Shown here: positions 40,845-56,160 of the stretch, piece after piece
How the letters are laid out: every line of letters begins with the position of its first letter
Numbering within the stretch: position 1 is the stretch's first letter
Origin: Streptomyces sp. ISL-87
GTDB taxonomy: Bacteria > Actinomycetota > Actinomycetes > Streptomycetales > Streptomycetaceae
Reading direction: 5' to 3'
DNA length: 64,000 bases
NCBI RefSeq assembly: GCF_018614095.1
Contig: NZ_JAGGOY010000046.1
Location: 94,797 to 158,796 of the forward strand
The notes under the pieces: model-generated
Told to the model about the DNA's origin: nothing
What the model saw: only the letters and a program-made list of their open reading frames with translations
Databases searched by the model: none
Made by a program: the position numbers and the translations under genes

Positions 40845-42199
40845 GTGCCACAGCGGCCGCGGCGGCGTACACCGGCTCGATGACTGCGAGGCGGGCGACC
40901 CCGTCGCACACACCGACTCCGCCGGACGGACCGGCCCCGTCGCACACACGGGCCCCGTCGCACACACCGACCCCGTCGGTTCCGTCCGCGTCGTCCCCGC
41001 CCTCGCTGGGGCGGCGGCAGGTGAACGCCGTCGCCGGGTGCTACTTCGTGGCGTCCTTCGCCGCCCTCGGGCTGCCCCCGTACCTCACCGAGATCCTCCC
41101 CGGTTTCGGCGACACCACCGCCCAGTGGGCGGGCGTGCTGTACGTCGTACCAACCGTATGCGCCGCCGTCGGGGCGCCGCTGTGGGGCCGGCTCGCCGAC
41201 CGGTTCGGCCGCAAGCGGCTGCTTCTGCGCGCCCAGCTCGGGCTCGCCCTGTCGTTCCTGCTGGCCGGGTGGGCCGACTCCCTCGCCACCTTCATCCTGG
41301 CCCTGGTGCTCCAGGGCATCCTCGGCGGCACGTTCGCCGCGTCCAACGGGTATCTGGGCGCCGCCCTGGACGGCCCGGAGCTGTCCAAGGCGCTCACCCT
41401 GATGCAGGGCGCGGCGCGGGCGGCCCTGGTCTTCGCGCCCGTGGTCGTCGGCTCGCTGTCGCCCTGGCTGTCGCCGCACCGCCAGTACGCGCTGCTCGCC
41501 GTCCTGCCGCTCACGGCGGCCGTGCTGATCGCGGCCCTGCCGGAGTCGCGCGGGCCGAGACGGGCGCCCGCCGCCGAAGCGGCCGGGCCGGTGGCGGAGG
41601 TGACCGAAGAGCCTTCCCCGGCGTCGGAACTCCGCACCCTCTACGCCCTCGAATTCGCCTTCGTCTTCTCCACCGTCATCTCCTATCCCTACCTGATCCG
41701 GCTGATCGGCGAGCGCATACCCGGCACCTCCCCGTTCCTGTCCGGCGTCCTCTTCGCCCTCCCGCACCTCTGTTACCTGCTGACGGCGATGGTGGTGCAC
41801 TCCGCCTTCCACCGTCGCCCCCGCCTCGGCATGGCGCTGGGCTTCACCTGCATCGCGCTCGGCCTCGCCGGGCACGGTGTGGCCGACGGCCCGGTCACAC
41901 TGACCGCCGTACGACTGCTGCTCGGCGCCGGTCTGACCCTCGGGCTCGTATGCCTGTCCGTACTGGCCGCCGAGTGTGTCAAGGGACGCGCGCCGGGCAG
42001 GCTGTTCGGCGCGCGGGAGTTCTTCTCCAAGGCGGGTGCGGTCGTCGCCGGGGTCGCCGCCGCCATAGGCACTGGCCACTACGGCCCGGCCGCGCCCGTA
42101 CTGACCGGCGGCGCCATGGCCCTGGTGGCCGCGTGCGCCCTCGTTCTTCCCCGCTCTCGTCGCAGCCTCCGCACCCTCCGTACCCGCTGGAGCCGTTGA
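40841..42199 (+). CDS. MFS transporter, probable siderophore exporter (PvsC-like)
   Basis: 452 residues from ATG 40841, overlapping the upstream stop (ATGA). Residues about 18-55 are a repetitive Pro/Ser/His/Thr extension coded by CCGTCGCACACA-type repeats (40903-40980) and absent from typical MFS proteins. Twelve helices follow, with motif A as GRLADRFGRKRLLL. Its position between the two NIS synthetases, as in pvsC, makes export of the finished siderophore the likely role. Confidence 0.9.
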   Translation: MSATAAAAAYTGSMTARRATPSHTPTPPDGPAPSHTRAPSHTPTPSVPSASSPPSLGRRQVNAVAGCYFVASFAALGLPPYLTEILPGFGDTTAQWAGVLYVVPTVCAAVGAPLWGRLADRFGRKRLLLRAQLGLALSFLLAGWADSLATFILALVLQGILGGTFAASNGYLGAALDGPELSKALTLMQGAARAALVFAPVVVGSLSPWLSPHRQYALLAVLPLTAAVLIAALPESRGPRRAPAAEAAGPVAEVTEEPSPASELRTLYALEFAFVFSTVISYPYLIRLIGERIPGTSPFLSGVLFALPHLCYLLTAMVVHSAFHRRPRLGMALGFTCIALGLAGHGVADGPVTLTAVRLLLGAGLTLGLVCLSVLAAECVKGRAPGRLFGAREFFSKAGAVVAGVAAAIGTGHYGPAAPVLTGGAMALVAACALVLPRSRRSLRTLRTRWSR

Positions 42200-44076
42200 T
42201 GCCCCCGCTGAACAAGTCACTCGCCACCGCCCCAGTGGCCAGCGCCCCACTCGCCACTGCCCCAGTGGCCAGCGCCCCACTCGCCACCGCCCCAGTGGCC
42301 CCCGCCCCACACGCCACTGCCCCAGTGACCACCGCCCCAGTGGCCCCCGCCCCTTCCGGCCTGCCGAGCGCGGACGACGTCGTCGCCCACACCCTCCTCA
42401 ACTGCCTGCTGCGCGAAGTGTCCGGACCGGAGCACCAGAGCGCCGTCACCGAGGGCCATCTGCTGCTGCGTCTGCCCCGGCGCGGCGTACTGCTGCGCAT
42501 CGCCCTGCGCCGTACCTCCCTGCTGGGCGCCCACCGGTTCACCGGCCCGGTGCTGGAGCAGTACGGCGACCGCTGGGCGCAGATCGACTGGCGGCGCCTG
42601 GCCGAGTACACCCAGGACGAGCTGTCGCTGCGTACGGGCGTGCGGAACGAGGAGTTCCTGGATCAGGTCGCCTCCGGTCACCAGGCCGTCACCGCAGCAC
42701 TTGCCGCCCGCACGGGGGCAACGGCCTCCGCCCTGTCGCAGGGCGGAGACGAGCTCGCGACGTACGTCGCCTCCGAGCAGTCCCTCCTCTTCGGCCACCG
42801 CTTCCACCCCACCCCCAAGGCACGCACCGGCGATCCCGGGTCCTGGCTGTCGTACGCGCCCGAGGCCGGTGCGGTCTTCCCGCTGCGCCACCTCGCCGTC
42901 CGCGCCCACCTGATCGCCGAGGAGCGCGCCGAGGAGTGCGCCACCGACCCGCTGGACCGGCTGCACCCCGACGTCCCGGACGGCTACCGGCTGCTGCCCG
43001 CGCACCCCTGGCAGTACGAGATGCTGCGCGAGCACCCCGAGCTGCGGGCGGCCTTCGACCGGGGCGACATCCTTGACCTCGGACCGGGCGACACGCCCTT
43101 CGCCGCCACCGCGTCGGTGCGCACCCTCTACGACGGTGAGACCTTCCTGAAGTTCAGCCTCAACGTCCGCATTACCAACTGCCTGCGCAAGAACGCGAGT
43201 TACGAACTCTCGGGCGCCGTGGCCATGACCCGGCTGCTGGAGCCCGCGCTGACCGACCTGGCGGCCCGCTTCCCCGGCAGCGCCATGCTCCGCGAACCCG
43301 CCTACCGCAGCCTCGCCCTGCCCGGCCCCGACGGGACCCCCGACCGGACTCTGCTCGAAGGCTTCGGAGTGATCGTCCGCGAGGGCCTGTCCCGGCAGCT
43401 CCTGCCGGGCACGACCCCGCTGCTCGCGGCCGCGGTCGCCGACGAATACCCGACGGGCCCGGGTCACGTCTCCCGCCTCCTGGAGGGAGCGGGGCCGCGG
43501 AACGTCCTCGACTGGTGGACGGCGTACCTCAGGCTGCTCGTGCCGCCCGTCCTGGCCGCCTACTTCGACCACGGGCTGGTCCTGGAGCCGCATCTGCAGA
43601 ACGTCATCGTCTGCGTCGACGACGACGGCATGCCGGCCCAGGTCCTCTTCCGCGACCTGGAGGGCACCAAGCTGCTCCCCGAGCGGCACGCCGCCACCCT
43701 CGCCACGCTGCCCGCCGACGTCGCCGGTCCCATGACGTACGACGCGCAGCGCGGCTGGGACCGGGTCGTCTACTGCCTGCTGGTCAACCACGTCGCCGAC
43801 ATGCTCGCCGCGCTCGCCGACCTGCATCCGCAGTCCGAGCCCGCGCTGTGGGCCCAGGTGCGGGCCACCATGCGGACGTACGCCGACCGAAACGGCTGCC
43901 CGCCCCGGCTCGCCGCCCTCCTGGCCGGAGTGCCGCTGCCGGCCAAGGCCAACCTGCTCACCCGCTGGGAGCGCAAGGCCGACCGCGAGGCCGGCTACGT
44001 GCGCCTCGCCTCCCCCTTCGCCGAGGACGTGCTGTCGGAAGCAGCCCACGACCAGGACACCTGGAGCGCCCGATGA
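42199..44076 (+). CDS. IucA/IucC-family siderophore synthetase, PvsD-like
   Basis: 625 residues from ATG 42199, sharing bases with the upstream stop (TGATG). After a 30-bp-repeat-coded extension (about 8-50), the NIS fold has ASEQSLLFGHRFHPTPKAR, LLPAHPWQYEML, ATASVRTLYDGETFLKFSLNVRITNCLRKN (ATP site), and YFDHGLVLEPHLQNVIV with RDLEGTKLL. Second synthetase of the operon. By analogy with PvsD it would join citrate to serine; by sequence alone only carboxylate-amine/alcohol condensation can be claimed. Confidence 0.92.
   Translation: MPPLNKSLATAPVASAPLATAPVASAPLATAPVAPAPHATAPVTTAPVAPAPSGLPSADDVVAHTLLNCLLREVSGPEHQSAVTEGHLLLRLPRRGVLLRIALRRTSLLGAHRFTGPVLEQYGDRWAQIDWRRLAEYTQDELSLRTGVRNEEFLDQVASGHQAVTAALAARTGATASALSQGGDELATYVASEQSLLFGHRFHPTPKARTGDPGSWLSYAPEAGAVFPLRHLAVRAHLIAEERAEECATDPLDRLHPDVPDGYRLLPAHPWQYEMLREHPELRAAFDRGDILDLGPGDTPFAATASVRTLYDGETFLKFSLNVRITNCLRKNASYELSGAVAMTRLLEPALTDLAARFPGSAMLREPAYRSLALPGPDGTPDRTLLEGFGVIVREGLSRQLLPGTTPLLAAAVADEYPTGPGHVSRLLEGAGPRNVLDWWTAYLRLLVPPVLAAYFDHGLVLEPHLQNVIVCVDDDGMPAQVLFRDLEGTKLLPERHAATLATLPADVAGPMTYDAQRGWDRVVYCLLVNHVADMLAALADLHPQSEPALWAQVRATMRTYADRNGCPPRLAALLAGVPLPAKANLLTRWERKADREAGYVRLASPFAEDVLSEAAHDQDTWSAR
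42221..42340. repeat. Four tandem 30-bp repeats inside a synthetase gene
   Basis: Units starting at 42221, 42251, 42281 and 42311, each close to TCGCCACCGCCCCAGTGGCC plus ten bases. They encode the decapeptide-like (L/H)ATAPVASAP. In-frame expansion lengthens a disordered N-terminus only. Confidence 0.9.
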
Positions 44077-45293
44077 CCGCACCCAGTCCCTCGGTGAGCG
44101 ACCGGATCCTCGCCCTGCCCGCCACCGGACTGCCCGCGTACGTCTACGACCTGGCGGCCCTGCGCGAGCACGCCGCCTCGGTCCGGGCGGCCCTCCCCGC
44201 GGGCGTCGAGCTGTACTACGCCGCCAAGGCGAACCCCGAGGCCGGGATCCTGGCCGCGCTCGGCCCGTACGTCGACGGTTACGAGGTCTCCTCGGGCGGC
44301 GAACTCGCGCACGTCGGCAAGGCCGTCCCGGGCCGCCCGCTGGCCTTCGGCGGCCCCGGCAAGACCCCGGCCGAGATCGCCACCGCGCTGGAGCAGGGCG
44401 TGACCCGCTTCCACGTAGAGAGCGTGCACGAACTCCACATGCTGGCGGAACTGGCGGCGCGGACGTCCCCCGACGCCCCGGTGGCCGTCCTGCTCCGCTT
44501 CAACCTGCCGCTGTCCAACGCCTCGCTGGCGGGCAGTTCACTGGCGATGGGCGGCCGCCCGACCCCCTTCGGCCTCGACCCCGCCGACGCTGACACCGTC
44601 GTAGGCCTCCTCACCGACGGCAGGTGGCCGCAGCTCGAACTGCGGGGCGTCCACGCCCACCTGGCCAGCGGCCTCGAAGCCGCCGAGCAGCTGGCCGTCG
44701 CGCGGTCGGTGGTGACGTGGACCACGGGCCTGTTCGCGCGCCACGGAATCCCCCTCCGCCTCGCCGAGGTCAACGTCGGCGGCGGCATGAACGTCGACTA
44801 CACCGCGCCCGAGCGCCGCTTCGACTGGACCGCGTACGGCGCGGGTCTCGCCCTCCTCGCAGCCGCCCACCCCGGCCTGACGCTGCGGATCGAACCCGGG
44901 CGCGCCCTGACCGCGTACTGCGGCTGGTACGCCACCGACGTGCTGGACGTGAAGCTCAGCCACGGCGAGGAGTTCGCGGTCGTCCGGGGCGGCACCCACC
45001 ATCTGCGCACCCCGGCGACCAAGGGCCACGACCAGCCCTGCTCCGTCCTGCCCACCGACACCTGGCCGCACCCCTGGCCACGCCCGGCCGCCCGCCAGGA
45101 CCGGATCACCCTCACCGGCCAGCTGTGCACCCCCAAGGACGTCCTCGCCCGCCAGGTCCCGGCGCCCGGACTGCGAGCCGGCGACCGGGTGGCCTTCGCC
45201 CTCGCGGGCGCCTACGCGTGGAACATCTCGCACCACGACTTCCTCATGCACCCCCGCCCCGGCTTCCACTTCATCGACCGGCAGGAAACCTGA
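44073..45293 (+). CDS. Type III PLP decarboxylase, PvsE/SbnH-like
   Basis: 406 residues from ATG 44073 (ATGA overlap). Alanine-racemase-like barrel plus C-terminal beta domain, as in diaminopimelate decarboxylase. The PLP lysine is Lys52 in YYAAKANPEAG; other motifs are EVNVGGGMNVDY (phosphate loop), RIEPGRALTAYCG, and a GQLCTPKDVL/GDRVAFALAGAYAWN pair at the active site (Cys in LCTPKD). In NIS pathways such enzymes decarboxylate a seryl- or diaminopropionyl-citrate intermediate. It ends the five-gene operon. Confidence 0.9.
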   Translation: MTAPSPSVSDRILALPATGLPAYVYDLAALREHAASVRAALPAGVELYYAAKANPEAGILAALGPYVDGYEVSSGGELAHVGKAVPGRPLAFGGPGKTPAEIATALEQGVTRFHVESVHELHMLAELAARTSPDAPVAVLLRFNLPLSNASLAGSSLAMGGRPTPFGLDPADADTVVGLLTDGRWPQLELRGVHAHLASGLEAAEQLAVARSVVTWTTGLFARHGIPLRLAEVNVGGGMNVDYTAPERRFDWTAYGAGLALLAAAHPGLTLRIEPGRALTAYCGWYATDVLDVKLSHGEEFAVVRGGTHHLRTPATKGHDQPCSVLPTDTWPHPWPRPAARQDRITLTGQLCTPKDVLARQVPAPGLRAGDRVAFALAGAYAWNISHHDFLMHPRPGFHFIDRQET

Positions 45294-45776
45294 CAGCCCG
45301 GCCAGTTGGCGGCGATTCGCGGAGCCGGCGTGCCGTGGCTGCCGCGGGCTCACCGGCCGGCAGGGGCGGATCTGCTCCGGTTTGTCATGCTCGCGCCGCG
45401 TGGCGGGTCGGGGGTCGGGAGTCATGGTGGGCAGACGTCAGAATCTGATCGTTTTATTGCATCTTAGGCACGGTGATTGGTCTTTTTATGGGTCCGGAAT
45501 GACCGGTGGAGGCTGTCATTTCGGCAAGGTCACATGGCGAACCCGAACTGACTATGCTCCCCGATGTGTTGCGCTGCGCTCACAGCGAGTCATGGACGCT
45601 GTGGTGCGCGCGGACGGAGCGTGGCTGCAAAGGGAAGCGACCATCGGCGCGATCTCGAAGCGACCCGTCGGGGCCTCATCGGAGCACTCGTACATGCCCG
45701 AGTGAAGCCCGTCGTTCCTTTCGGCGCATCGCATCGCCTCAGTCCGCTCATTTTCAGACTGTATAGGGACCCCCTG
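45294..45776. promoter_or_regulatory. Intergenic region before the conservon
   Basis: 483 bases, clearly less GC-rich than its surroundings between about 45440 and 45560 (runs such as GTTTTATTGCATCTTAGG and TCTTTTTATGG). Open frames run through it in continuity with cvnA (possible upstream ATG 45564), but no homology appears before MVRSGAIS at 45777. It most likely holds the cvn promoter and leader. No siderophore-operon terminator hairpin is obvious. Confidence 0.45.
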
Positions 45777-47273
45777 ATGGTTCGTTCAGGTGCAATTTCC
45801 AGAGCCCGGCCAACTGTAGTTGCCCGGGTATGGCTGCTCCCTCCCGGAGTTCTGGCGGGAGCCTCCGCCATAGCGTTGCTCTTTTCCCCTGCACACATAC
45901 GGACACCGGTTGCCTGGTGCGGCCTTGCCGCGGTCGTCCTGACGGTCATCACCTCGGCCGAGACCGCGCGCCGACTGCGATCGGCAGAAGCGGCCCGCCA
46001 CGCGCAGGCGAGTGCCGAGGCAGACGAGTACCACGCGCAACGTGAGGCCGCGCTGACCGGACGCCTGGCCGATCAGCGGGCCACCGCAGTCTGGTTCGCC
46101 GAAGAGCTCCTTCCCGCGGCTGTCGCCCGTCTGCAGAAGGGCGTTCCCGCCTCGGAGATCCTGCAGGCCGTCGCCTTCGGCAAACACCTCGACGGCGAGT
46201 TCAGCGAAGCGCTCAGGGGGGCTCTGCAGACGCTCCTGGAAGCCGTGGAGGCCGAGGAGCACACACGGGACTCCTCCCAGCGGGCACTTGTGGCCGTCGC
46301 GCGCAGGGTTCAGGCGATCGTGCATCAGCTCGCCAAGGACCTCCATTCCATGCAGATCCTCCACGGTACGGATGTCGTGGTCTCCCGCGGTCTGCAGGAC
46401 ATCGACCATCGCAATGCGCTGATCGGCCGCCTCGCGGCCAGCATCGCGGTCCTGGGTGACGCTCGGCCCGGGCGTCAGTGGTCGAAGGCGATTCCGCTCT
46501 ACGACGTCTTGCGGGGGGCCATGTCACGCATCGTGGACTATCCCCGCGTGAAGCTGCAGGCGGTGACAGAGGTGGCTGTGATCGGCCCGGGAGCCGAGCC
46601 GCTGATCCATCTGCTCGCCGAGCTGCTCGACAACGCCACGACGTTCTCGCCGCCGAACACCCCGGTGGAGGTGACCGCGAGCGAGGTGCCCTCCGGTATC
46701 GCAATCGAGATCGAGGACCGTGGGGTCGGACTCACCGAAGAAGTCCGGCAGCACATCGGACGCGTCATGGCGCAGGCATTGTCGGGTATCCATCTGGCGG
46801 GCCTGGGCGAGGTTACACAGCTCGGCCTGCCCGTCGTCAGCAGGCTGGCCCGCGAGCACGGCTGCGAGGTCGACCTGCGCACCTCCGCCTACGGAGGTGT
46901 ACGGGCCGTCGTGCTCGTGCCCAGGCGTCTGATCACCACGGTGCCGCAGCCTGTCGTGAGGCCCCAGGAGCCCGTCCGGAAGCGCACGGGCGGCCCGATC
47001 CTGCCCCGGCCGACGCCGGCGCGCGATGCCGCCATGGATTCCGGCGAGGTCAGGAAGACCGCCAACGGACTTCCGCAACGACGACGGGAGTCGCCCGTCC
47101 CGAAACCGGTCGTACTGGCGACTCCCACGCCCCCCGTCGCTCCGGCTGCCCCCCGGGGCACCTCCGGCACATCCCGCCAGCCGGGTCTGATGTGGGAGGC
47201 GTTCAACGGCGAGAAGAGATCAGTCGCCGAACCTTCCACTCCCCACAGCGAACCGTCAGATGAGGTTGAGTAA
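45777..47273 (+). CDS. cvnA: Conservon sensor kinase-like protein CvnA
   Basis: 498 residues from ATG 45777. Two membrane helices (about 14-36 and 41-62), a helical coiled region, and a histidine-kinase-type ATPase domain (about 225-390) with N-box LLAELLDNATTFSPP, G1 IEIEDRGVGL and G2-like LGLPVVSRLAREHGC. A Pro/Arg-rich disordered tail (about 395-498) follows. Conservons assemble CvnA-D into a membrane complex likened to a eukaryotic G-protein-coupled receptor. Overlaps or abuts cvnB. Confidence 0.92.
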   Translation: MVRSGAISRARPTVVARVWLLPPGVLAGASAIALLFSPAHIRTPVAWCGLAAVVLTVITSAETARRLRSAEAARHAQASAEADEYHAQREAALTGRLADQRATAVWFAEELLPAAVARLQKGVPASEILQAVAFGKHLDGEFSEALRGALQTLLEAVEAEEHTRDSSQRALVAVARRVQAIVHQLAKDLHSMQILHGTDVVVSRGLQDIDHRNALIGRLAASIAVLGDARPGRQWSKAIPLYDVLRGAMSRIVDYPRVKLQAVTEVAVIGPGAEPLIHLLAELLDNATTFSPPNTPVEVTASEVPSGIAIEIEDRGVGLTEEVRQHIGRVMAQALSGIHLAGLGEVTQLGLPVVSRLAREHGCEVDLRTSAYGGVRAVVLVPRRLITTVPQPVVRPQEPVRKRTGGPILPRPTPARDAAMDSGEVRKTANGLPQRRRESPVPKPVVLATPTPPVAPAAPRGTSGTSRQPGLMWEAFNGEKRSVAEPSTPHSEPSDEVE

Positions 47274-47274
47274 C

Positions 47275-47682
47275 GTGCAGCCACTGCCCAACATGGACTG
47301 GATGCTCAAGGAACTCGCGGGCGGCGTCCCCTACGTGCGACACGTGGTCGTCCTGTCGTCGGACGGCCTGTGCATCGGGCAGGCGAACACGGCGCCCGAC
47401 ACCGCTGACGCGATCGCCGCCGCCTGCTCCGGTATCCAGAGCCTGGCGAGGGCCATCGCGCAGATGTTCCCGCACGGCGACGGTTCGACGCGGATGGTCG
47501 GGATCGAGGCCGACGGCGGGTACTTCTCCTTGATGGCGGCCGGTCCCGGGGCCTATCTCGCGGTGCTGGCCGACCAGGAGGTGGACGCCGGACTTCTGGG
47601 CGACCGCATGCGGACGTTGGTGGTCCGGATCGGCCAGCACATGACCAGCCCGCCTCGTGAGGACGTCGGGCAGGCGGTGTGA
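47275..47682 (+). CDS. cvnB: Conservon roadblock/LC7 protein CvnB
   Basis: 135 residues from GTG 47275, reading QPLPNMDWMLKELAGGVPYVRHVVVLSSDGLCIG onward, with GAGG nine bases upstream; ATG 47260 in frame is an alternative. Roadblock/LC7 fold through TRMVGIEADGGYFSLMAAGPGAYLAVLAD. In other systems roadblock proteins act as activating partners of small GTPases, here CvnD. Coupled to cvnC by GTGA. Confidence 0.92.
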   Translation: MQPLPNMDWMLKELAGGVPYVRHVVVLSSDGLCIGQANTAPDTADAIAAACSGIQSLARAIAQMFPHGDGSTRMVGIEADGGYFSLMAAGPGAYLAVLADQEVDAGLLGDRMRTLVVRIGQHMTSPPREDVGQAV

Positions 47683-48035
47683 CATCAGAGAACCAGGACC
47701 CCTGGGATGAAGGCACCCCCGTTCCGCTCTATGTCATTACCGGTGGCCCGGGTTCCTCGGCCAAGACCTTCAACCTGGTCACCCTCATCGCGGCGAGGTC
47801 CGAGCCCGAACCCGCGATGCAGCCCGAGCAGGCGGCCATCCTCTCCATGTGCACATACCCGCTCTCGGTGGCCGAGGTGTCGGCGTACCTCAGTCTTCCG
47901 TTCAGCGTCGTCACCGTGCTGCTGTCCAAACTCGTCGACGACGAGCGGGTCGAGGCCATCGCGCCCGTGCCTGTGGCGGCATACCCCGAACGCGGCCTTC
48001 TGGAGGCGGTGATCCATGGACTACGTAAGCTCTGA
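47679..48035 (+). CDS. cvnC: Conservon DUF742 protein CvnC
   Basis: 118 residues from GTG 47679. DUF742 pattern: PLYVITGG near the start and a winged-helix-like core PEQAAILSMCTYPLSVAEVSAYLSLPFSVVTVLLSKLVDD. Probable adaptor or regulator in the conservon complex. Its 3' end overlaps cvnD by 20 bases, as is usual in these operons. Confidence 0.92.
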   Translation: MTSENQDPWDEGTPVPLYVITGGPGSSAKTFNLVTLIAARSEPEPAMQPEQAAILSMCTYPLSVAEVSAYLSLPFSVVTVLLSKLVDDERVEAIAPVPVAAYPERGLLEAVIHGLRKL

Positions 48036-48639
48036 CGCGCCTGATGCCGGCCCGCGTGACACCGATGTACTGCTGCCTCACGGCGCCAGGGGAGTCAAGG
48101 TCGTGATCGTCGGCGGCTTCGGAGTCGGCAAGACGACCATGGTCGGGGCGGTGAGCGAGATCCCGCCCCTGACCACCGAAGAGACCATGACTCAGGCGGG
48201 CGTCGGGATCGACCACAACCCCGGCGCCGAAGGCAAGAACACCACGACCGTCGCGATGGACTTCGGACGGATCAGCATCAACCAGGAGCTGGTCCTCTAT
48301 CTGTTCGGGACTCCGGGACAAGAGCGTTTCTGGTTCCTGTGGAACGGCATCTTCGAAGGCGCGCTCGGCGCCGTGGTCCTCGTCGACACACGCAGGATCG
48401 AAGTCTGTTTCGAGGTCATCACCCGTCTCGAAGACCGCCGCGTCCCGTTCGTCGTGGCCGTCAACGCCTTCCCGGAGGCTCCGCAGTACCCCGTACCAGA
48501 TTTGCGCACTGCTCTGGCCCTCAGCGAATCCGTGCCCATCGTCACCTGTGACGCACGGGACCGGGCGTCCTGCCGCGACGCCCTGCTCTCGCTGATGGCC
48601 TACCTGTGCACCCTCGCCGCCGCCCAGGAGACCGCATGA
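48016..48639 (+). CDS. cvnD: Conservon small GTPase CvnD
   Basis: 207 residues. P-loop GGFGVGKTTMVGAV (about 33-46), switch-II-like LYLFGTPGQERFWFLW, and VVAVNAFPEA in place of NKxD. Ras-like, MglA-related GTPase of the conservon. It begins inside cvnC and its stop overlaps the P450 start (ATGA), so all five genes are one translation-coupled operon. Confidence 0.93.
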   Translation: MDYVSSDAPDAGPRDTDVLLPHGARGVKVVIVGGFGVGKTTMVGAVSEIPPLTTEETMTQAGVGIDHNPGAEGKNTTTVAMDFGRISINQELVLYLFGTPGQERFWFLWNGIFEGALGAVVLVDTRRIEVCFEVITRLEDRRVPFVVAVNAFPEAPQYPVPDLRTALALSESVPIVTCDARDRASCRDALLSLMAYLCTLAAAQETA

Positions 48640-50081
48640 CCATTCCACCTGCTGAACACGCCACCGCGAAGCCCGGGCCGACCCCGCCCCCGGGCTGCCC
48701 GGCCCACACCGCCACAGGAACCGACGGAGCCACCCGGCTCTACGGCGCCGCAGCGGCGACGGACCCCATGGGTCTGTACGAGAAGTTGCGTGCCACCCAC
48801 GGTCCGGTGGCGCCCGTTCTGCTCGACGGCGACGTACGCGCCTGGCTCGTCCTGGGGTACCTCGAGAACCGTGACGTGGCCAGCCGCCCGACCCAGTTCT
48901 CCCGCGATCCCCGCGTCTGGCACGGCTGGACGAGCGGGGAGATCGACCCCGCCACCTCGCCGCTCGTGCCGATGATCGGCTGGCGTCCCGACTGCGTCTG
49001 CGCGGACGGCGAGGAACACCAGCGACTGCGTGGTGCGGTCACGGCCAGCCTCAGCCAGTTCGACCACCGCGGAATCCGCCGTCACATCACCCGTTTCGCC
49101 CACCAGCTGATCGACACATTCTGTGAGAGCGGCGAGGCGGAACTGGTAGGCCAGTTCACCGAGCACCTGCCCATGCTCACTCTTACCCATCTGCTCGGAA
49201 TGTCGGACGAGTCCGGCCCCAAGCTCGTGCACGCCGCCCGTGACCTCTTCAAGGCCACCGAGACGTCGCTCGCCAGCAACGCCTACGTGCTGGAGAGCCT
49301 CGAACAGCTCGTCGTCGCCAAGCGTGCCCGCCCAGGGCACGACATCGCCTCCGCGTTGATGGCCCATCCCGCCAACCTCACGGACGAGGAGGTCCAGCAT
49401 CACCTACGCCTCATCCTGCTCGCCGGCTACGAAACGACCGCCAACCTCATGTCCAACGTCGTCCGCATGGTCGTCACCGACCCCCGGTTCCGCGGTTCGC
49501 TGGCCGGCGGTCAGATGACCTTGCCCGAAGCCGTGGAGCAGGTCCTCTGGGACGAGCCACCGCTGATGGTGTGCCCGGGCCGCTGGGCCAACGGTGACAC
49601 CACCCTCGGTGGACAGCAGATCAAGGCGGGAGACATGCTCCTGCTGGGCCTGGCCGCCGGAAACGTCGACCAGGCGATCCGCCCGGATCCCTCGACCCCT
49701 GTGCACCACAACCGCGCGCACCTGTCCTTCAGCGCCGGTACCCACGAATGCCCCGGCCAGGACATCGGCCGCATCATCGCCGACTCCGGCATCGACATCT
49801 TGCTCACCCGCCTTCCCGACATCACCCTGGCCGTCCCCGAGGAAAGTCTGACCTGGCGTTCCTCCACCTGGGCCCGGCATCTCACGGCACTACCAGTGAA
49901 CTTCGCTTCCCGCTCTCCCCAGGCCAACGACGTCCCGGGCCCGCTTCCGGCCCCGCCCGCCCAGAGCAACGGGATGCCATCAGCGCCGCTGCGTCCGGTG
50001 CCCGGCCCCGAGTCGGAACGCCGGCCTGAACCCCGTGCCTCGTGGTGGACGCGCGTCGGACGCCTCCTGCGGAGGCGGTAG
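48636..50081 (+). CDS. Cytochrome P450 of CYP157 type lacking ExxR
   Basis: 481 residues from ATG 48636. I-helix LLAGYETTANL (about 261-271) and heme-ligand loop FSAGTHECPGQD with Cys372. The K-helix, where P450s carry ExxR, reads EQVLW (301-305), so the Arg is Leu. The CYP157 family from Streptomyces conservons is known to share this (EQSLW in CYP157C1). The protein has a Pro-rich then strongly basic C-terminal tail (about 435-481, ending RVGRLLRRR) that could bind membrane. Fifth gene of the conservon. A terpene synthase follows, convergent, and could share a pathway. Confidence 0.9.
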   Translation: MTIPPAEHATAKPGPTPPPGCPAHTATGTDGATRLYGAAAATDPMGLYEKLRATHGPVAPVLLDGDVRAWLVLGYLENRDVASRPTQFSRDPRVWHGWTSGEIDPATSPLVPMIGWRPDCVCADGEEHQRLRGAVTASLSQFDHRGIRRHITRFAHQLIDTFCESGEAELVGQFTEHLPMLTLTHLLGMSDESGPKLVHAARDLFKATETSLASNAYVLESLEQLVVAKRARPGHDIASALMAHPANLTDEEVQHHLRLILLAGYETTANLMSNVVRMVVTDPRFRGSLAGGQMTLPEAVEQVLWDEPPLMVCPGRWANGDTTLGGQQIKAGDMLLLGLAAGNVDQAIRPDPSTPVHHNRAHLSFSAGTHECPGQDIGRIIADSGIDILLTRLPDITLAVPEESLTWRSSTWARHLTALPVNFASRSPQANDVPGPLPAPPAQSNGMPSAPLRPVPGPESERRPEPRASWWTRVGRLLRRR

Positions 50082-50170: not shown

Positions 50171-51202
50171 TTACTCCTGGAACGAGACGTCCGCGGGGGC
50201 GTAGCGGGGTGCTCCGGTGTACCAGGCATGGAGGCCGGACAGAAAACTGCATGCTCCCTGGAGCCACGTTGCCAGCTCGGCTCGCTCATCGTGGTGCAGC
50301 CCGGATCGCCGGACGAGCTGGGGCAGGTCTTTTTGTCTGAGGTGCTCGAAGTCACGTAGGCGGGCGTTCACCAGATTCAAGGCAGCGGGTACGGCGTCGT
50401 GGCGGCTTATGCCCAATGACGTTCCGACGACCAGGACGAGGTTGTTGACGTCGTGTTCCTCATGGACTTCCCTTTCATAGGAGGCAATGTCATTCGCCAG
50501 TCCCATGAAGTCCATGAAGGCATCGAGCAGGGCGCGGACGGTCCGGGTGTGCCGGATCTTCTCAGGTATTCGAGTGCCGGTGGCCAACTCGACGGAATAG
50601 GAGGCGGTATAGGCGGCGAAGCTCTCACGTCGGAACGGGGCGTAATCGATCAGGTGGGGAATGCGGCCGCTGCGGCTGTTGGCCAGTTCCTCGACTCCCG
50701 CATCGATGTATCTCGCCAGGGCCCGGTTGAACTCGTTTCGCCAGTGCGCCAGACTCGGGGGGAAGAGGTGTTGTTGCAGATCGGCAATTCCCCTCTCGAC
50801 GGCATTCGTCGGCTCCGGTAACCGGGCGCCGTGCTCCGGTCGCAGGAAGGCGTGCAGCCGGGCGGTGAAGACCAGCGCGCCGGGGAGGTCACCGGTCTGT
50901 TTGAAGGCGGAGGCGAAGTAGTCGTCCCAGGCCAGAGCCCACACATTGAACCGGTGGTTGAGCCGGAGGCCGGCGAGTGAGGCGTCAGGAAGGGTCCAGG
51001 CAGTCAGCTGGTCAACGGTCATGGCACGGAACTTGGGCCGGGTCCATATCGCGCGGCGGGCCGACGGCCCCTCGTAGCCGTCCAGCATGCCCATCTTGCG
51101 CGCCCAGGATTCGCTCTCCTCGTGAAGGGCCGACAGATACGGATTCACCCGCAGCGGATAGGGCATCCACAGCTGGGGGAGCTCGACGGTACGTACTGTC
51201 AT
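50171..51202 (-). CDS. Class I terpene synthase
   Basis: 343 residues from ATG 51202, with AAGGAG upstream. All-helical terpene cyclase with the first metal motif at WDDYFAS (Asp93/94) and the NSE triad NDIASYERE (Asn237, Ser241, Glu245), which bind three Mg(II) and the diphosphate. Also RRESFAAYTASYSVELATG. Length and motifs fit bacterial sesquiterpene-type cyclases, but the product cannot be predicted. Convergent with the conservon operon and its P450; other Streptomyces conservons also sit next to P450 and terpene cyclase genes. Confidence 0.9.
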   Translation of the reverse strand: MTVRTVELPQLWMPYPLRVNPYLSALHEESESWARKMGMLDGYEGPSARRAIWTRPKFRAMTVDQLTAWTLPDASLAGLRLNHRFNVWALAWDDYFASAFKQTGDLPGALVFTARLHAFLRPEHGARLPEPTNAVERGIADLQQHLFPPSLAHWRNEFNRALARYIDAGVEELANSRSGRIPHLIDYAPFRRESFAAYTASYSVELATGTRIPEKIRHTRTVRALLDAFMDFMGLANDIASYEREVHEEHDVNNLVLVVGTSLGISRHDAVPAALNLVNARLRDFEHLRQKDLPQLVRRSGLHHDERAELATWLQGACSFLSGLHAWYTGAPRYAPADVSFQE

Positions 51203-51708
51203 GGGGACCAATCTCCTTCTCTCTTCGGCCCGCATCGGTGTGCGGACCACCATGCGAGCGGCCTGCCTGCACGAAGTTGGTTCCCCCTGTCGTTCTCACC
51301 TCGCCGCTGGGAGCTCGGGCACGCCGTCGGACGGCCTGCCAGAGGGATGCGGTGCGCTGCGGGCGCTCCCGCAATGTGGTGACGACCGCCCCTGCCGTGA
51401 GGCCGGACCATGCCCGTCCCGCGGCTCTCCAAACCTGCCCGCCACGGACTGCCGATCAGAACAGGTCCCTTGCGGAATGGAACGATCCCTCCGGAGCGCT
51501 TTCCGTAAGTCCGCGCAAGTGCCACGAGGTGACGGTCTCGACGGAGGTGGTCTCGCCCTCCGAGGAGGGTGCAGGGCTCCACTCGAGCGCCAGCTGGTCA
51601 CCAGCGAAAGGGCCTGCAGTTGGGCAGGACAGCGGCTGCGCGTGCCGTGGCCACCGGTATGCGGCCCGGACGGGCGGGCGCACGCCGGCCGGGGGCCGCC
51701 CGCGGTCA
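51203..51708. promoter_or_regulatory. Intergenic region upstream of the terpene synthase
   Basis: 506 bases between two leftward genes. It must contain the terpene synthase promoter and the 3' end of the binding-lipoprotein transcript. Overlapping reading frames here are Arg/Pro/Gly-rich shadows. No promoter motif or repeat stands out. Confidence 0.4.
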
Positions 51709-52854
51709 TCAGCCCGAGACGGCCTCGGCCCAGCCGCGGTTGACGGCCTGTCTCGCCTTCTCCCTCTGCGCTTCCGTCGGAAACGTCGGCGTGCCCTCGA
51801 CCGTCGGCAGTTTCTCCGCGGCGGCTCTGTCGAGGGTGCCGTCCTTCTCCATGGCGTCCATGAGGACGGGGCGTGCATAGGCGCCGAGCCGGATGTTCTG
51901 GCCTTCCGGGCTGAAGACGTACTCCTGCCACAGACGTGCCGCCGCGGGGTGTGGGGCGTCCTTGTTCACCCCGTTCGCGTAGTACTGGGCGAAGCTGCCG
52001 TCGAAGGGGATGGCGGTCCGCCAGCCGACGTCCGTGCCCTTCTCGCGGAACTCGTCGGCGTATCCGAGGTTGAGGAAGTCCCAGTCGATGCTGATCGGGG
52101 TCTGGCCCTTCGCGATCGTGGCCGGGGTGGATTCGACCGGGATGAAGTTGCCGTTTTTGCTGAGCTCGGCGAAGAAGTCGATGCCGGGCTGGATGTCGTC
52201 GAAGGAACCCCCGTTCGCCAGAGCCGCCGCGTACACCCCGGCGAAGGCGGAGCCGGACTTGGTGGGGTTGCCGTTGAGCGCGACCTTGCCTTTGTACTCG
52301 GGCTTGCGCAGGTCGGCGAAGGTCGCGGGGCAGGTCTTGACGCGCTTGGCGTCACAACCGATCGAGATGTAGCCGCCGTAGTTGTTGTACCAGCGGGCGT
52401 GCGGGTCCTTCTGTTCCTTGGGGATCTCTTCGTACGCGGCGACCTTGTACGGAGCGAGCAGGCCCTGCCGTGCCGCGGCCTGCGCGAACGAGCCCCCCAC
52501 GTCGATCACATCGGGGGCGCGGCCTTCGCCCCTGTGCTCCTTCAGGGCGTTGATCTCGTCCTGGCTGGTACCTTCCGGGTTCTCCACCTTGACCTTGATC
52601 CCGTACTTCTTCTCGAAGCCGTCGATCAGTGCGCCGTAGTTGGCCCAGTCGCTCGGGAGCGCGATCGTGTTGAGCGAGCCTTCCTTCTTCGCCGCTGTGG
52701 TCAGTGCCGCCATGCCGCCGGCGTCCGCGGCGGAGGTGGCCACCACGGGTGCTCTGGGCGCGGCGGTGGGTTTGTCTCCGCAGCCGCCGAGGGGCGCGGC
52801 CGTGAGGGCCAGGCAGGCGGCGACGGTGGCTGTCCGGAGACGGGGTGCGGGCAC
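51709..52854 (-). CDS. ABC transporter substrate-binding lipoprotein (polyamine/iron type), orphan
   Basis: 381 residues from GTG 52854, with GGAG upstream. Lipobox PLGGC (Cys 25). Mature protein of the PotD/AfuA-like class: EGSLNTIALPSDWANYGALIDGFEKKYGIKVKVENPEGTSQDEI, APDVIDVGGSFAQAAARQGLLAPYK, and ISIDWDFLNLGYADEF. Ligand probably a small cation, polyamine or ferric complex. No permease or ATPase gene lies within the window on either side, so its transporter is elsewhere or it acts as a sensor. Confidence 0.8.
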   Translation of the reverse strand: MPAPRLRTATVAACLALTAAPLGGCGDKPTAAPRAPVVATSAADAGGMAALTTAAKKEGSLNTIALPSDWANYGALIDGFEKKYGIKVKVENPEGTSQDEINALKEHRGEGRAPDVIDVGGSFAQAAARQGLLAPYKVAAYEEIPKEQKDPHARWYNNYGGYISIGCDAKRVKTCPATFADLRKPEYKGKVALNGNPTKSGSAFAGVYAAALANGGSFDDIQPGIDFFAELSKNGNFIPVESTPATIAKGQTPISIDWDFLNLGYADEFREKGTDVGWRTAIPFDGSFAQYYANGVNKDAPHPAAARLWQEYVFSPEGQNIRLGAYARPVLMDAMEKDGTLDRAAAEKLPTVEGTPTFPTEAQREKARQAVNRGWAEAVSG

Positions 52855-52978: not shown

Positions 52979-55750
52979 TCAGAACCCCTCGTCGTCCCAC
53001 CCGGCCAGGAGCGCCTCCCCGAGATCCATCGCGGGCGGTGCGGCCCCGTCGTGGAGGGCCTGCTCGCTCCAGATGATCTTGCCGCGGGCGGTGTAGCGGG
53101 TGCCCCAGCGCTCGGCGAACTGCGCGACGAGGAACAGGCCGCGGCCGCCCTCGTCGGTGGCCTCGGCCCGGCGCAGGTGCGGGGAGGTGCTGGACCCGTC
53201 GGAGACCTCGCAGACCAGGCTGCGGTCGTACAGCAGCCTCACCCGGATGGGCTCGGTGCCGTAACGGATGGCGTTGGTTATCAGCTCGCTGAGGATGAGT
53301 TCCGTGGTGAAGGCCATGTCCTCCAGGCCCCAGTCCGCAAGTCGGCGGGCGCAGGCGTTGCGCACCGGGGACACCGCCGCAGGGTCGGGGGGCACGTCCC
53401 ACTCGGCGATCCGCGCGGGGTCCAAGCGGCGGGTGCGGGCCACCAGCAGCGCGACGTCGTCGCTGGGCCTGGCGGGCAGCATCGCGTCGATCACCGCGGT
53501 GCAGGTTTCCTCCGGGGTGCGGGCGGGCCCGGCCAGGGCGGCGCGCAGCGCTGCCAGGCCCGCGTCCGGATCGCGGTCGCGGCTCTCGATCAGCCCGTCG
53601 GTGAAGAGTGCCAGCCGGGAGCCTTCGGGCAGGGTGACCGTCATGGTCTCCACGGGCATACCCGCGCCCAGGCCCAGCGGCGGGGAGACCGGCACCTCGG
53701 GGAAGGACACGGTTCCGTCGGGGCGGACAAGAGCGGGGCCCGGATGACCGGCGGTGGCGGCGGTCACCTGCCCCGAGACGGGATCGTAGACGGCGCACAG
53801 GCAGGTGGCTCCGGTGATCCCCTGCCACTCCTGCTCGTCGGTGTCGATGTGGGTGACCAGCTCGTCCAGGTGGCTCAGGAGTTCGTCCGGGGGCAGGTCG
53901 AGGGTGGAGAAGTTGTACACGGCGGTGCGCAGGCGGCCCATGGTGGCGGCGGCGTGGAGACCGTGGCCGACGACGTCGCCGACCACCAGGGCCACTCGGG
54001 TGCCGGGCAGCGGGATGACATCGAACCAGTCACCGCCCACCCCGGCCTGGGCGGCCAGATAGCGGTGCGCGACCTCGACGGCGGACTGCTCCGGTACTCC
54101 CCGGGGCAGCAGGCTGCGCTGCAGGGTCACGGCCATGTTGTGCTCGCGGGTGTAGCGGCGGGCATTGTCGACGGACAGTGCCGCCCGGGCGGTCAGCTCC
54201 TCGGCGAAGGACACATCCTCCTCGTCGAACGGCGGGGAGTCCTGCCCCCGCCAGTAGCCGGCCATCCCCAGCACCACGCCCCGGGCCCGCAGGGGCACGA
54301 CGATCAGGGAGTGGATGCCGCGGTCCAGGATCTGCAGGGCGTTGGCCTGGTCCTGGGCCCGCCAGCGGTGGGTGGCGCGCAGGTCCGCCTCCAGGACCGC
54401 ATGGCCGCCGGCCAGCCCGGCGGCCATGGGACCGGTGGGACCGAACCGGATCAGCTCGCCGACGGGGGAGAGCGGGTGGTCGCCCTGAAGGCCGACGACG
54501 GCGGTGCGGCGCATCTCGGTGCTCGTTTCGGGCGGCTCCTCGCCGCGCAGCACCGGGTCCAGTAGGTCGACCGTCACCACGTCGGCGAACCGCGGGACCG
54601 CCACCTCCGCCAGTTCCTCCGCGGTGCGCTCCACGTTCAGCGTCGTTCCGACCTGCACCCCCGCGTCGTACAGCAACTTCAGCCGCTCGCGGGCCACCTC
54701 GGCCCTGCCGGAGAGTGCCCGCAGCTCGGTGGTGTCCCGCAGCGTGACGACGGTCCCGGCCTGCCCGTAGGGGGCGGTGGGCCGGATGTTCACCGCCAGC
54801 AGCCGATCGGCTGCCATGTGCAGCTCGTCGGTCGCGGAACGGCCCGATGCGATGGGATCGGCGATCCCCTCCTCCAGACCCAGGTCCGTGACGGAGAGCC
54901 CTTCCGCGTCCACCGGCAGATCCAGCAGCCGCCGCGCCTCGTCATTGGCCAGCAGCAGCCGTCCGCCGCCGCCGACGATCAGTACGCCCTCTCGCACCGC
55001 GTGCAGCACCGCGTCGTGGTGCTCGTACATCCTCGTCATCTCGGCCGGTCCCAGGCCGTGGGTCCGGCGCAACAGCCGACGGCTCACCAGAGCCGTCCCG
55101 CCCGCGGACAGGGCGAGCACCGCGGCTGCGCTGCCGAGGACGACCGGCAGCTGCCGGTTCACCATGCTCTGGACGTTCTGGACCGTGACCGGGGAGGAGA
55201 CGATGGCGATGACGCGGCCGTCGGAGTCCTTGACGGGGACCACCGAGACCACGGACTGCCCCAGGGACCCTTCGAACGTCTCGGTGAAGGACTTGCCGGC
55301 CGCCGCCTTGGAGAAGGGGCCGACGACGTGCTTCCCGATCTGCCGCGGGTCGCTGTGGGTGAGGGTGACCCCGTCGAGTGTGTACACGTTGATGCCGTCG
55401 ACCCCGGCGATCTTCCGGGCCGCCTGGGCGCTCGGCTGTAGCACCGCGCTCGGATGGGGGCTGCGCAGGGCGGCGACGATTCCCGGAGACTCCGCGAACG
55501 TTCCGGCGGCGGCGAGCGTACGGTCCCGGGCGTCCAGCATGGCGTCGCTCCGGGCCTGCACCACGAGCGCCACCACCGCGGCGGCGACGAGAAGCACCAC
55601 GACGGCCAGCTGCAGGAGGAACACCTCGCCGGCCACGCTGCGCACGCTCAGCAGGGAGGACAGACGCTGCGGCCGCGGCGCCCTTCCCTTGGGGGGCTGG
55701 GCGTGCTCCTGATGCTCCTGGCGCCGGAAATATCCAAGGAGGTCGCTCAT
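52979..55750 (-). CDS. Membrane SpoIIE/PP2C phosphatase with PAS, GAF and ATPase domains
   Basis: 923 residues. N-terminal helix (about 43-65), extracytoplasmic sensor (about 66-190), second helix (about 198-220), PAS (about 235-345), GAF (about 365-545), PP2C-type SpoIIE phosphatase (about 570-785: VGGDWFDVIPLPGTRVALVVGDVVGHGLHAA, TAGHPGPALVRPDG, LALFTDGLIESR) and C-terminal HATPase_c of anti-sigma kinase type (LILSELITNAIRYG, GGRGLFLVAQFAERWG). It likely dephosphorylates anti-anti-sigma factors while its kinase-like domain phosphorylates or binds them. Divergent from a second SpoIIE phosphatase. Confidence 0.92.
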   Translation of the reverse strand: MSDLLGYFRRQEHQEHAQPPKGRAPRPQRLSSLLSVRSVAGEVFLLQLAVVVLLVAAAVVALVVQARSDAMLDARDRTLAAAGTFAESPGIVAALRSPHPSAVLQPSAQAARKIAGVDGINVYTLDGVTLTHSDPRQIGKHVVGPFSKAAAGKSFTETFEGSLGQSVVSVVPVKDSDGRVIAIVSSPVTVQNVQSMVNRQLPVVLGSAAAVLALSAGGTALVSRRLLRRTHGLGPAEMTRMYEHHDAVLHAVREGVLIVGGGGRLLLANDEARRLLDLPVDAEGLSVTDLGLEEGIADPIASGRSATDELHMAADRLLAVNIRPTAPYGQAGTVVTLRDTTELRALSGRAEVARERLKLLYDAGVQVGTTLNVERTAEELAEVAVPRFADVVTVDLLDPVLRGEEPPETSTEMRRTAVVGLQGDHPLSPVGELIRFGPTGPMAAGLAGGHAVLEADLRATHRWRAQDQANALQILDRGIHSLIVVPLRARGVVLGMAGYWRGQDSPPFDEEDVSFAEELTARAALSVDNARRYTREHNMAVTLQRSLLPRGVPEQSAVEVAHRYLAAQAGVGGDWFDVIPLPGTRVALVVGDVVGHGLHAAATMGRLRTAVYNFSTLDLPPDELLSHLDELVTHIDTDEQEWQGITGATCLCAVYDPVSGQVTAATAGHPGPALVRPDGTVSFPEVPVSPPLGLGAGMPVETMTVTLPEGSRLALFTDGLIESRDRDPDAGLAALRAALAGPARTPEETCTAVIDAMLPARPSDDVALLVARTRRLDPARIAEWDVPPDPAAVSPVRNACARRLADWGLEDMAFTTELILSELITNAIRYGTEPIRVRLLYDRSLVCEVSDGSSTSPHLRRAEATDEGGRGLFLVAQFAERWGTRYTARGKIIWSEQALHDGAAPPAMDLGEALLAGWDDEGF

Positions 55751-56160
55751 ACTCCATTTTCTAACCTCTACGGGTCGTCGGCAGCGGGGAGCGACGGTCG
55801 CCGAGCGGTAGCGATCCGGGCGCCCCTCCGCGGAGGGGTGGACGAGCTCGTGCTGGTCGCCGTCGGCCCTGGGTGGCGTCCCGGGAAGGACCGTTTGGAC
55901 AGTCCCGGTCGGGCTCGCCGCTGGCCATCTCGCCGGGCCGGGAGTCACTCACCCGGCAGCCGGCGACGTTTGCCGGCCACCGTCGGTGGCTCCTGGCCGA
56001 GGCAGGAGGGCGCCGGGCGTTGGACGGCTGGCGCAGCCGCTCCCGGACCGAGGCCGGCGTGATGCTCTATCCCTACGCCGGTTCCGGCAGCGACCGGCCG
56101 CCCACGGGGACCGGTGAACCGGAGTGGCGGCCATGCGTCCGGGCGAGGCAGGCTGTACTC
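55751..56160. promoter_or_regulatory. Divergent promoter region between two phosphatase genes
   Basis: 410 bases. Frames continue upstream of ATG 56161 (possible starts near 55873), but that part has no homology. A GAGG-type site lies shortly before ATG 56161. No clear promoter motif could be assigned. Confidence 0.4.

Follow-up and report, generated by a model that had tools for sequence, protein, structure and literature searches.

A cytochrome P450 gene that stands in a conservon, carries EQVLW in its K-helix in place of the ExxR motif and has a terpene cyclase gene as its neighbour raises the question of what such a P450 does, and whether the cyclase belongs to its function. We analysed this locus in a stretch of 64,000 nucleotides from Streptomyces sp. 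ISL-87, referred to below as the window, and surveyed relatives of the P450 together with the genes around them.

A complete conservon with a P450 as its fifth gene

The operon is a conservon, an actinobacterial G-protein system, and consists of the following genes.

45564..47273, + strand: cvnA, histidine-kinase-like protein (Pfam HATPase_c)
47260..47682, + strand: cvnB, Roadblock/LC7 protein (Pfam PF03259, E 3.1e-19)
47679..48035, + strand: cvnC, DUF742 protein (Pfam PF05331, E 1.2e-29)
48016..48639, + strand: cvnD, small GTPase-like protein (Pfam PF03029, ATP_bind_1, E 1.9e-27; Ras below the cut-off)
48636..50081, + strand: cvnE, CYP157-family P450 of 481 aa (translation, Pfam, alignment and tree)

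The Pfam matches place cvnA-cvnB-cvnC-cvnD in this order at 45564-48639, upstream of the CYP157 gene, and the ATG of cvnE overlaps the stop codon of cvnD as ATGA. The initial annotation had called the P450 a conservon P450, and both observations confirm cvnE as the fifth gene after cvnA-D. HATPase_c was the sole Pfam match in CvnA, the Pfam scan finding neither NIT nor HAMP. The start of cvnA is uncertain; in the 539-aa product used as query, which began at 45654, hydropathy windows revealed two close membrane segments at residues 59-79 and about 84-104. A CvnA that lacks a recognised sensor domain and is accompanied by CvnE is as expected for conservons with CvnE.

Promoter-like and terminator-like sites were sought between cvnE and the cyclase gene and none were found. 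Further along the window, a gene on the minus strand (52979-55948) encodes a protein with sCache, GAF, SpoIIE phosphatase and HATPase domains by Pfam, and is adjoined by a gene for a solute-binding protein (51709-52854); both are absent from the surroundings of the cassette in most loci. Upstream of the conservon, 41038-45293 encodes what look by eye like siderophore-synthetase-like and PLP decarboxylase-like proteins.

The K-helix lacks ExxR in CvnE and in its relatives

The segments of CvnE considered here are listed below.

49422..49439, + strand: I-helix AGYETT, residues 263-268, with the acid-alcohol pair intact
49536..49550, + strand: K-helix EQVLW, residues 301-305, replacing ExxR (alignment to CYP154C1)
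49728..49757, + strand: heme loop FSAGTHECPG with Cys372 (translation)
49917..50078, + strand: Pro-rich linker and Trp/Arg-rich end, residues 428-481 (tail survey and model)

In the alignment, VEETLR of CYP154C1 corresponds to VEQVLW of CvnE, such that the Glu and Arg of ExxR become Q302 and W305. Only three ExxR strings occur in CvnE, at residues 49, 127 and 459, all of them outside the K-helix. A structural model (mean pLDDT 76.4, built from 37 sequences) was identified by Foldseek as a P450 fold, since all 50 PDB matches shown were P450s, CYP154C2 being the best.

Relatives were collected from 221 loci, which gave 217 distinct P450s once four identical rows had been dropped. The genus sample of 140 loci comprised most of the matches listed, best first, in 121 Streptomyces genomes; the other 81 loci were the best 80 of 116 matches and the second copy of the window genome, and close relatives are over-represented in the survey. 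The window's own P450-cyclase pair stands outside all counts of relatives. Trp occupied the Arg position of ExxR in 217 of 217 relatives, which excludes chance as the origin of the motif, and EQVLW was thus not peculiar to this locus. The Glu position was Gln in 179, Glu in 27 and another residue in 11, and the heme Cys was invariant (217/217). We also ruled out that another ExxR lies hidden close to the K-helix, because none of the relatives (0/217) has one at 15 aa or less from its Trp. The absence of ExxR from the K-helix, proposed from the sequence at the outset, therefore holds with no substitute Glu-Arg pair nearby, and the Cys372 loop and AGYETT segment that had been described as intact are both present in the translation.

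CvnE belongs to the CYP157 family

Replacement of ExxR is described for CYP157 enzymes in a passage of PMC3599690 that cites Rupasinghe 2006, with E297-QSLW in CYP157C1, EQSLW in CYP157C2 and EVLW in CYP157A2. A sequence 100% identical to CYP154C1 was present in one of 392 Streptomyces genomes (G115), and the best CYP157 of that genome, L179, has the Glu of its EQSLW exactly at residue 297 when read from a GTG start. On these two grounds L179 is presumably CYP157C1. CvnE of the window is 54.5% identical to L179 over 431 aa and is thus a CYP157 by the family rule quoted in PMC3599690, which asks for an identity above 40% with a named member; the same value sits at the border of the rule for subfamily CYP157C, more than 55% to a C member. 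When placed in the tree afterwards, the window P450 fell among EQxLW relatives, as sister to L021 inside a clade in which 36 of the 37 other rows are linked to cyclases of group T2 (see below). Identity to the presumed CYP157C1 and position in the tree both bear out the suspected CYP157 membership, and the loss of ExxR, being a known trait of that family, is then no surprise.

CYP157C1, as L179, resembles the window P450 in having EQSLW for ExxR, cvnD upstream and a long tail. Its genome differs from the window, however, in that its six CYP157-like genes all lie away from its four cyclase-domain matches. In the same S. coelicolor-like genome (G115 C1:6122751-6131975), a further conservon and the two-domain cyclase are separated by about 7 kb.

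The C-terminal tail

After its P450 core, CvnE continues for 54 aa with 13 Pro, 9 Arg/Lys and 4 Asp/Glu, and ends in ASWWTRVGRLLRRR; a short helix is predicted with low confidence at tail residues 470-479. The long basic tail noted initially is thus real, but its standing as an oddity is not, for a Trp/Arg-rich end recurs by a simple criterion in 169 of 217 relatives, and a tail unique to this locus is ruled out. Relatives of the EEVMW group have no tail, and so the tail is dispensable for linkage to a cyclase. The tail may tether CvnE to the membrane complex.

Two kinds of CvnE

The catalytic I-helix Thr and the heme-side Arg have roles known from P450s in general. The group with EQVLW, to which the window P450 belongs, keeps the Thr in 78 of 81 copies, the acid in 77 and the heme-side Arg in 78, whereas in the EQSLW group, which includes CYP157C1, Ala replaces the Thr in 43 of 47 copies and Tyr replaces the Arg in all 47. 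Given these differences in Thr and Arg, which amount to a single difference at clade level, the window type may still be able to turn over a substrate and the CYP157C1 type may not. Across the survey, the Thr was present in 95 of 107 cyclase-linked copies versus 50 of 110 others, and the Arg in 98/107 versus 67/110. A copy-by-copy tie between cyclase linkage and better catalytic equipment was nevertheless set aside as unsupported: tests on independent pairs gave a median p of 0.625 for Thr and 1 for Arg, and the tie rests mainly on the EQSLW clade.

The cyclase of the window

50171..51253, - strand: class I terpene cyclase of group T2 (Terpene_syn_C_2, PF19086, E 6.8e-40)

This gene is convergent with cvnE, 89 bases separating the two open reading frames, and its true start may be Met18 (51202), the residue from which it aligns with geosmin synthase. 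DDYFA (residues 110-114), NDIASYERE (254-262) and Arg350-Tyr351 identify the product as a class I cyclase, and all 12 cyclases in an alignment share D110, D111, N254 and R350. It is 87% identical to its nearest T2 relative and at most 28% identical to other groups. Germacradienol/geosmin synthase is its nearest solved relative (phmmer, 178.7 bits). Unlike geosmin synthase, however, the window cyclase has one domain, and it reached 270.2 bits where NCBIfam NF041168 demands 1200, so that an identity as geosmin synthase was rejected.

CYP157 genes are recurrently paired with cyclases

A relative was scored as linked when a class I terpene cyclase lay downstream of cvnE at a distance between -500 and 2000 bp. 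Seven of the 217 loci, which lack 2 kb of downstream sequence, were dropped, and 210 remained. Such a cyclase was found in 107 of 210, and these 107 are all the linked loci among the 217. One hundred of these were convergent with cvnE, 95 of them within 250 bp, while an upstream cyclase appeared in 1 of 203 loci, as a fragment at the locus edge. In the close-relative set 61 of 76 assessable loci were linked, and in the genus sample 46 of 134. For the latter, a binomial calculation gave 0.00145 expected, treating related loci as independent and assuming a mean genome of 8.6 Mb; because of these two assumptions we prefer local controls. Other conservons served for this purpose, drawn from five genomes minus nine known to adjoin CYP157-like P450s, and none of 39 had a cyclase within about 6 kb, although 7 of 39 carried a P450 match; one control (L296) adjoins a 43% match among the matches listed, and the 39 regions include five overlapping pairs. 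In the window genome itself, a cyclase adjoins each of the two CYP157 genes, but no other P450 match (23) and no other conservon (7). The pairing of P450 and terpene cyclase, suspected from this one locus, is thereby substantiated as a recurrent linkage (107/210 versus 0/39), and the cyclase next door can no longer be regarded as an oddity of the locus. We found no description of a CYP157-cyclase module in the open literature on conservons, CYP157 and terpene cyclases; it is this recurrent module, and not the already known loss of ExxR, for which we found no precedent.

Linkage varied with the K-helix motif, at 67 of 78 assessable loci for EQVLW, 18/35 for EQTLW, 13/22 for EEVMW, 6/45 for EQSLW (each 505-1732 bp away) and 0/8 for DQVLW. 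A cvnD match on the same strand was present at 207 of 217 loci. At L215, L249 and L251 a CYP157 gene stands beside a cyclase with no conservon genes in the fetched flanks; among solo CYP157 copies with full flanks, five of eight have no cyclase. Eight of 21 matching plasmid records were examined, two of which hold a cyclase and five a cvnD match; one plasmid carries a complete conservon with its P450, and the convergent gene behind it is annotated as 7-epi-alpha-eudesmol synthase.

Several individual loci deserve mention. On plasmid L263 (4145-8305), a selinadiene synthase lies one P450 away from a CYP157-like P450, with no conservon in the stretch. On a Kitasatospora plasmid (L260:12222-13640), the gene for a Family 2B encapsulin shell follows a conservon P450 at a distance of about 4 kb. 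At L095:9341-10459 (-) the cyclase gene following cvnE falls into two open reading frames, likely a broken copy or a sequencing error. Contig C98 of the window genome holds, at 5-146 kb, four cyclase genes (one of them two-domain) and two CYP157 conservons with cyclases.

BLAST among the cyclase-less loci revealed, in the position of the cyclase and likewise convergent with cvnE, a conserved gene encoding about 560-580 aa at ten loci (L226:4463-6202 (+), L054, L212, L218, L220, L225, L233, L236, L238 and L246). Pfam, PDB and profile searches with it gave no match, and a single-sequence model was meaningless at pLDDT 36. Its product contains Cys pairs as well as RVIDDMADVRAD, which reads NDMVDVRAD in L054, and may represent a new enzyme, perhaps an isoprenoid-related one.

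Many cyclase groups, inherited with their P450 partners

Clustered at 40% identity, the 107 linked cyclases fell into ten groups, with 44, 36, 15, 3, 2, 2, 2, 1, 1 and 1 members. PF19086 was matched by all ten representatives of T1 and T3-T9 and, for T2, by the window cyclase; by the pattern used, T6 and T9 are without a textbook NSE motif. L073 of the first group scored 649.7 against the NCBIfam cut-off of 450 for selina-4(15),7(11)-diene synthase, and L235 of the third group 690.4 against the cut-off of 680 for 7-epi-alpha-eudesmol synthase. In a tree that included six unlinked domains of the window genome, T2 grouped with the four domains of that genome's two-domain cyclases, which by architecture alone look like geosmin synthases. 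A single clade of linked cyclases was rejected (p-AU 1.4e-37; quick tree of 42 linked versus 6 unlinked rows, leaving out one plasmid cyclase near a CYP157-like gene). As the ten groups share less than 40% identity and the linked cyclases are not one clade, the association of cyclase and P450 probably arose more than once; the tree is unrooted, and descent of unlinked families from linked ones is also compatible with it. The six EQSLW-group loci, whose distant cyclases make up T6, T7, T9 and T10, may in part be coincidence.

When the ten groups were mapped on the P450 tree they required nine changes, which is the minimum. Finer divisions behaved alike, with 13 changes for 13 groups at 50-60% identity (minimum 12) and the minimum of 25 for 26 groups at 75%, whereas shuffled finer groups needed about 63-67, the 26 groups about 67. 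Cyclase and P450 partners are thus inherited together. Presence of the cyclase changes at least 24 times on the same tree.

Conservons beside biosynthetic genes

A conservon beside biosynthetic genes is in itself of a known kind, as Cvn8, the indole prenyltransferase clusters and the conservon reported upstream of the frankiamicin cluster (PMC4383371) exemplify. Cvn8 resembles the window in being a conservon with a fifth, accessory gene beside a biosynthetic cluster, which it represses; in contrast to the window, its accessory protein is the GAF protein CvnF and the cluster makes a lanthipeptide (PMC13343842, PMC8510531). In various actinomycetes a conservon is described as always upstream of prenyl-type genes, as in the window, but these indole clusters combine a prenyltransferase with tryptophanase or an FMO and have no terpene cyclase in the account given (PMC3617294). 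In the case of epi-isozizaene synthase, a P450 adjoins a sesquiterpene cyclase as in the window, yet that P450 is described as the maker of known oxidation products, and the word conservon is absent from PMC6604706.

What the P450 may do

According to a 2026 paper on conservons (PMC13343842), which calls the function of the accessory CvnE and CvnF proteins unknown, these proteins occur with CvnA proteins without sensor domains and are proposed as inputs; CvnF8 can control CvnA8, and AlphaFold predicts CvnE11 touching the HATPase domains of CvnA11. With the cyclase linkage added to these data, the simplest reading is that CvnE reads a terpene and informs CvnA. We thus favour, with a probability of about 0.4, a role in which CvnE binds or oxidises the product of the cyclase and reports its state to a sensorless CvnA. 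The cyclase would make a terpene, probably a sesquiterpene; CvnE would bind it at the heme pocket, where the acid-alcohol pair and heme Cys for O2 activation are in place, and may oxidise it; the state of the ligand would be passed to the HATPase part of CvnA, which would act through CvnB and CvnC on the GTP/GDP state of CvnD, and gene expression would be tuned in step with terpene output. The putative elements of this scheme are the cyclase product as ligand, the contact between CvnE and CvnA, and any output. Sensing a terpene would in any case not be the sole task of CvnE, since 103 of 210 loci, including most with EQSLW, have no cyclase.

Nearly as likely as this sensor is a plain tailoring monooxygenase acting on the product of the adjacent cyclase, with the conservon merely regulating a two-gene pathway. 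Retention of Thr (78/81), acid (77/81) and heme-side Arg (78/81) in the EQVLW group is consistent with such an enzyme, and the CYP157 genes beside cyclases without a conservon in the fetched stretches (L215, L249, L251 and plasmid L263) favour an enzyme role over sensing. The P450 next to epi-isozizaene synthase is an example of such a pair as a biosynthetic unit (PMC6604706), and repression of an adjacent cluster by Cvn8 (PMC13343842) would suit the regulatory part. A tailoring enzyme sits less easily with the overlap of cvnE and cvnD, with a same-strand cvnD match at 207 of 217 loci, with cyclase-less copies that retain the same operon, five of eight solo copies with full flanks being without a cyclase too, and with an EQSLW clade in which the catalytic Thr is mostly gone (Ala in 43/47) although the operon place is kept; the association of CvnE with sensorless CvnA proteins (PMC13343842) likewise points elsewhere.

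Two further explanations appear much less probable. It is unlikely that CYP157 conservons and cyclases merely travel between genomes side by side, with no functional tie: four cyclase genes on the window contig, a linked cassette on a plasmid and at least 24 changes in cyclase presence on the tree would agree with such mobility, but not the strict side, orientation and spacing (95/217 convergent within 250 bp, 1/203 upstream), the 0/39 among other conservons, or several unrelated cyclase groups occupying one slot with partners inherited together. Slightly more remote is the idea that CvnE senses redox state or a gas on behalf of the G-protein relay, with the cyclase as just one of the regulated outputs. 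All 217 copies retain the heme Cys while other catalytic residues vary, and most EQSLW copies have no cyclase, as such a sensor might predict, yet it does not account for the prevalence of cyclases, from so many groups, as the linked gene.

Returning to CvnE as a reader of the cyclase product, a broader version, which we consider rather doubtful, is that CYP157 CvnE proteins are terpenoid receptors, each matched in evolution with a different cyclase family that would make its ligand, and that a strain could read its own or a neighbour's volatile terpene in this way. The pairing may have gone unremarked because the genome of the model species, as represented by the single genome G115, lacks it. 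The conservon signalling system may be tied to scent-type molecules; each cyclase-linked CvnE gains a testable candidate ligand or substrate, and many cyclases of no known role gain a candidate partner.
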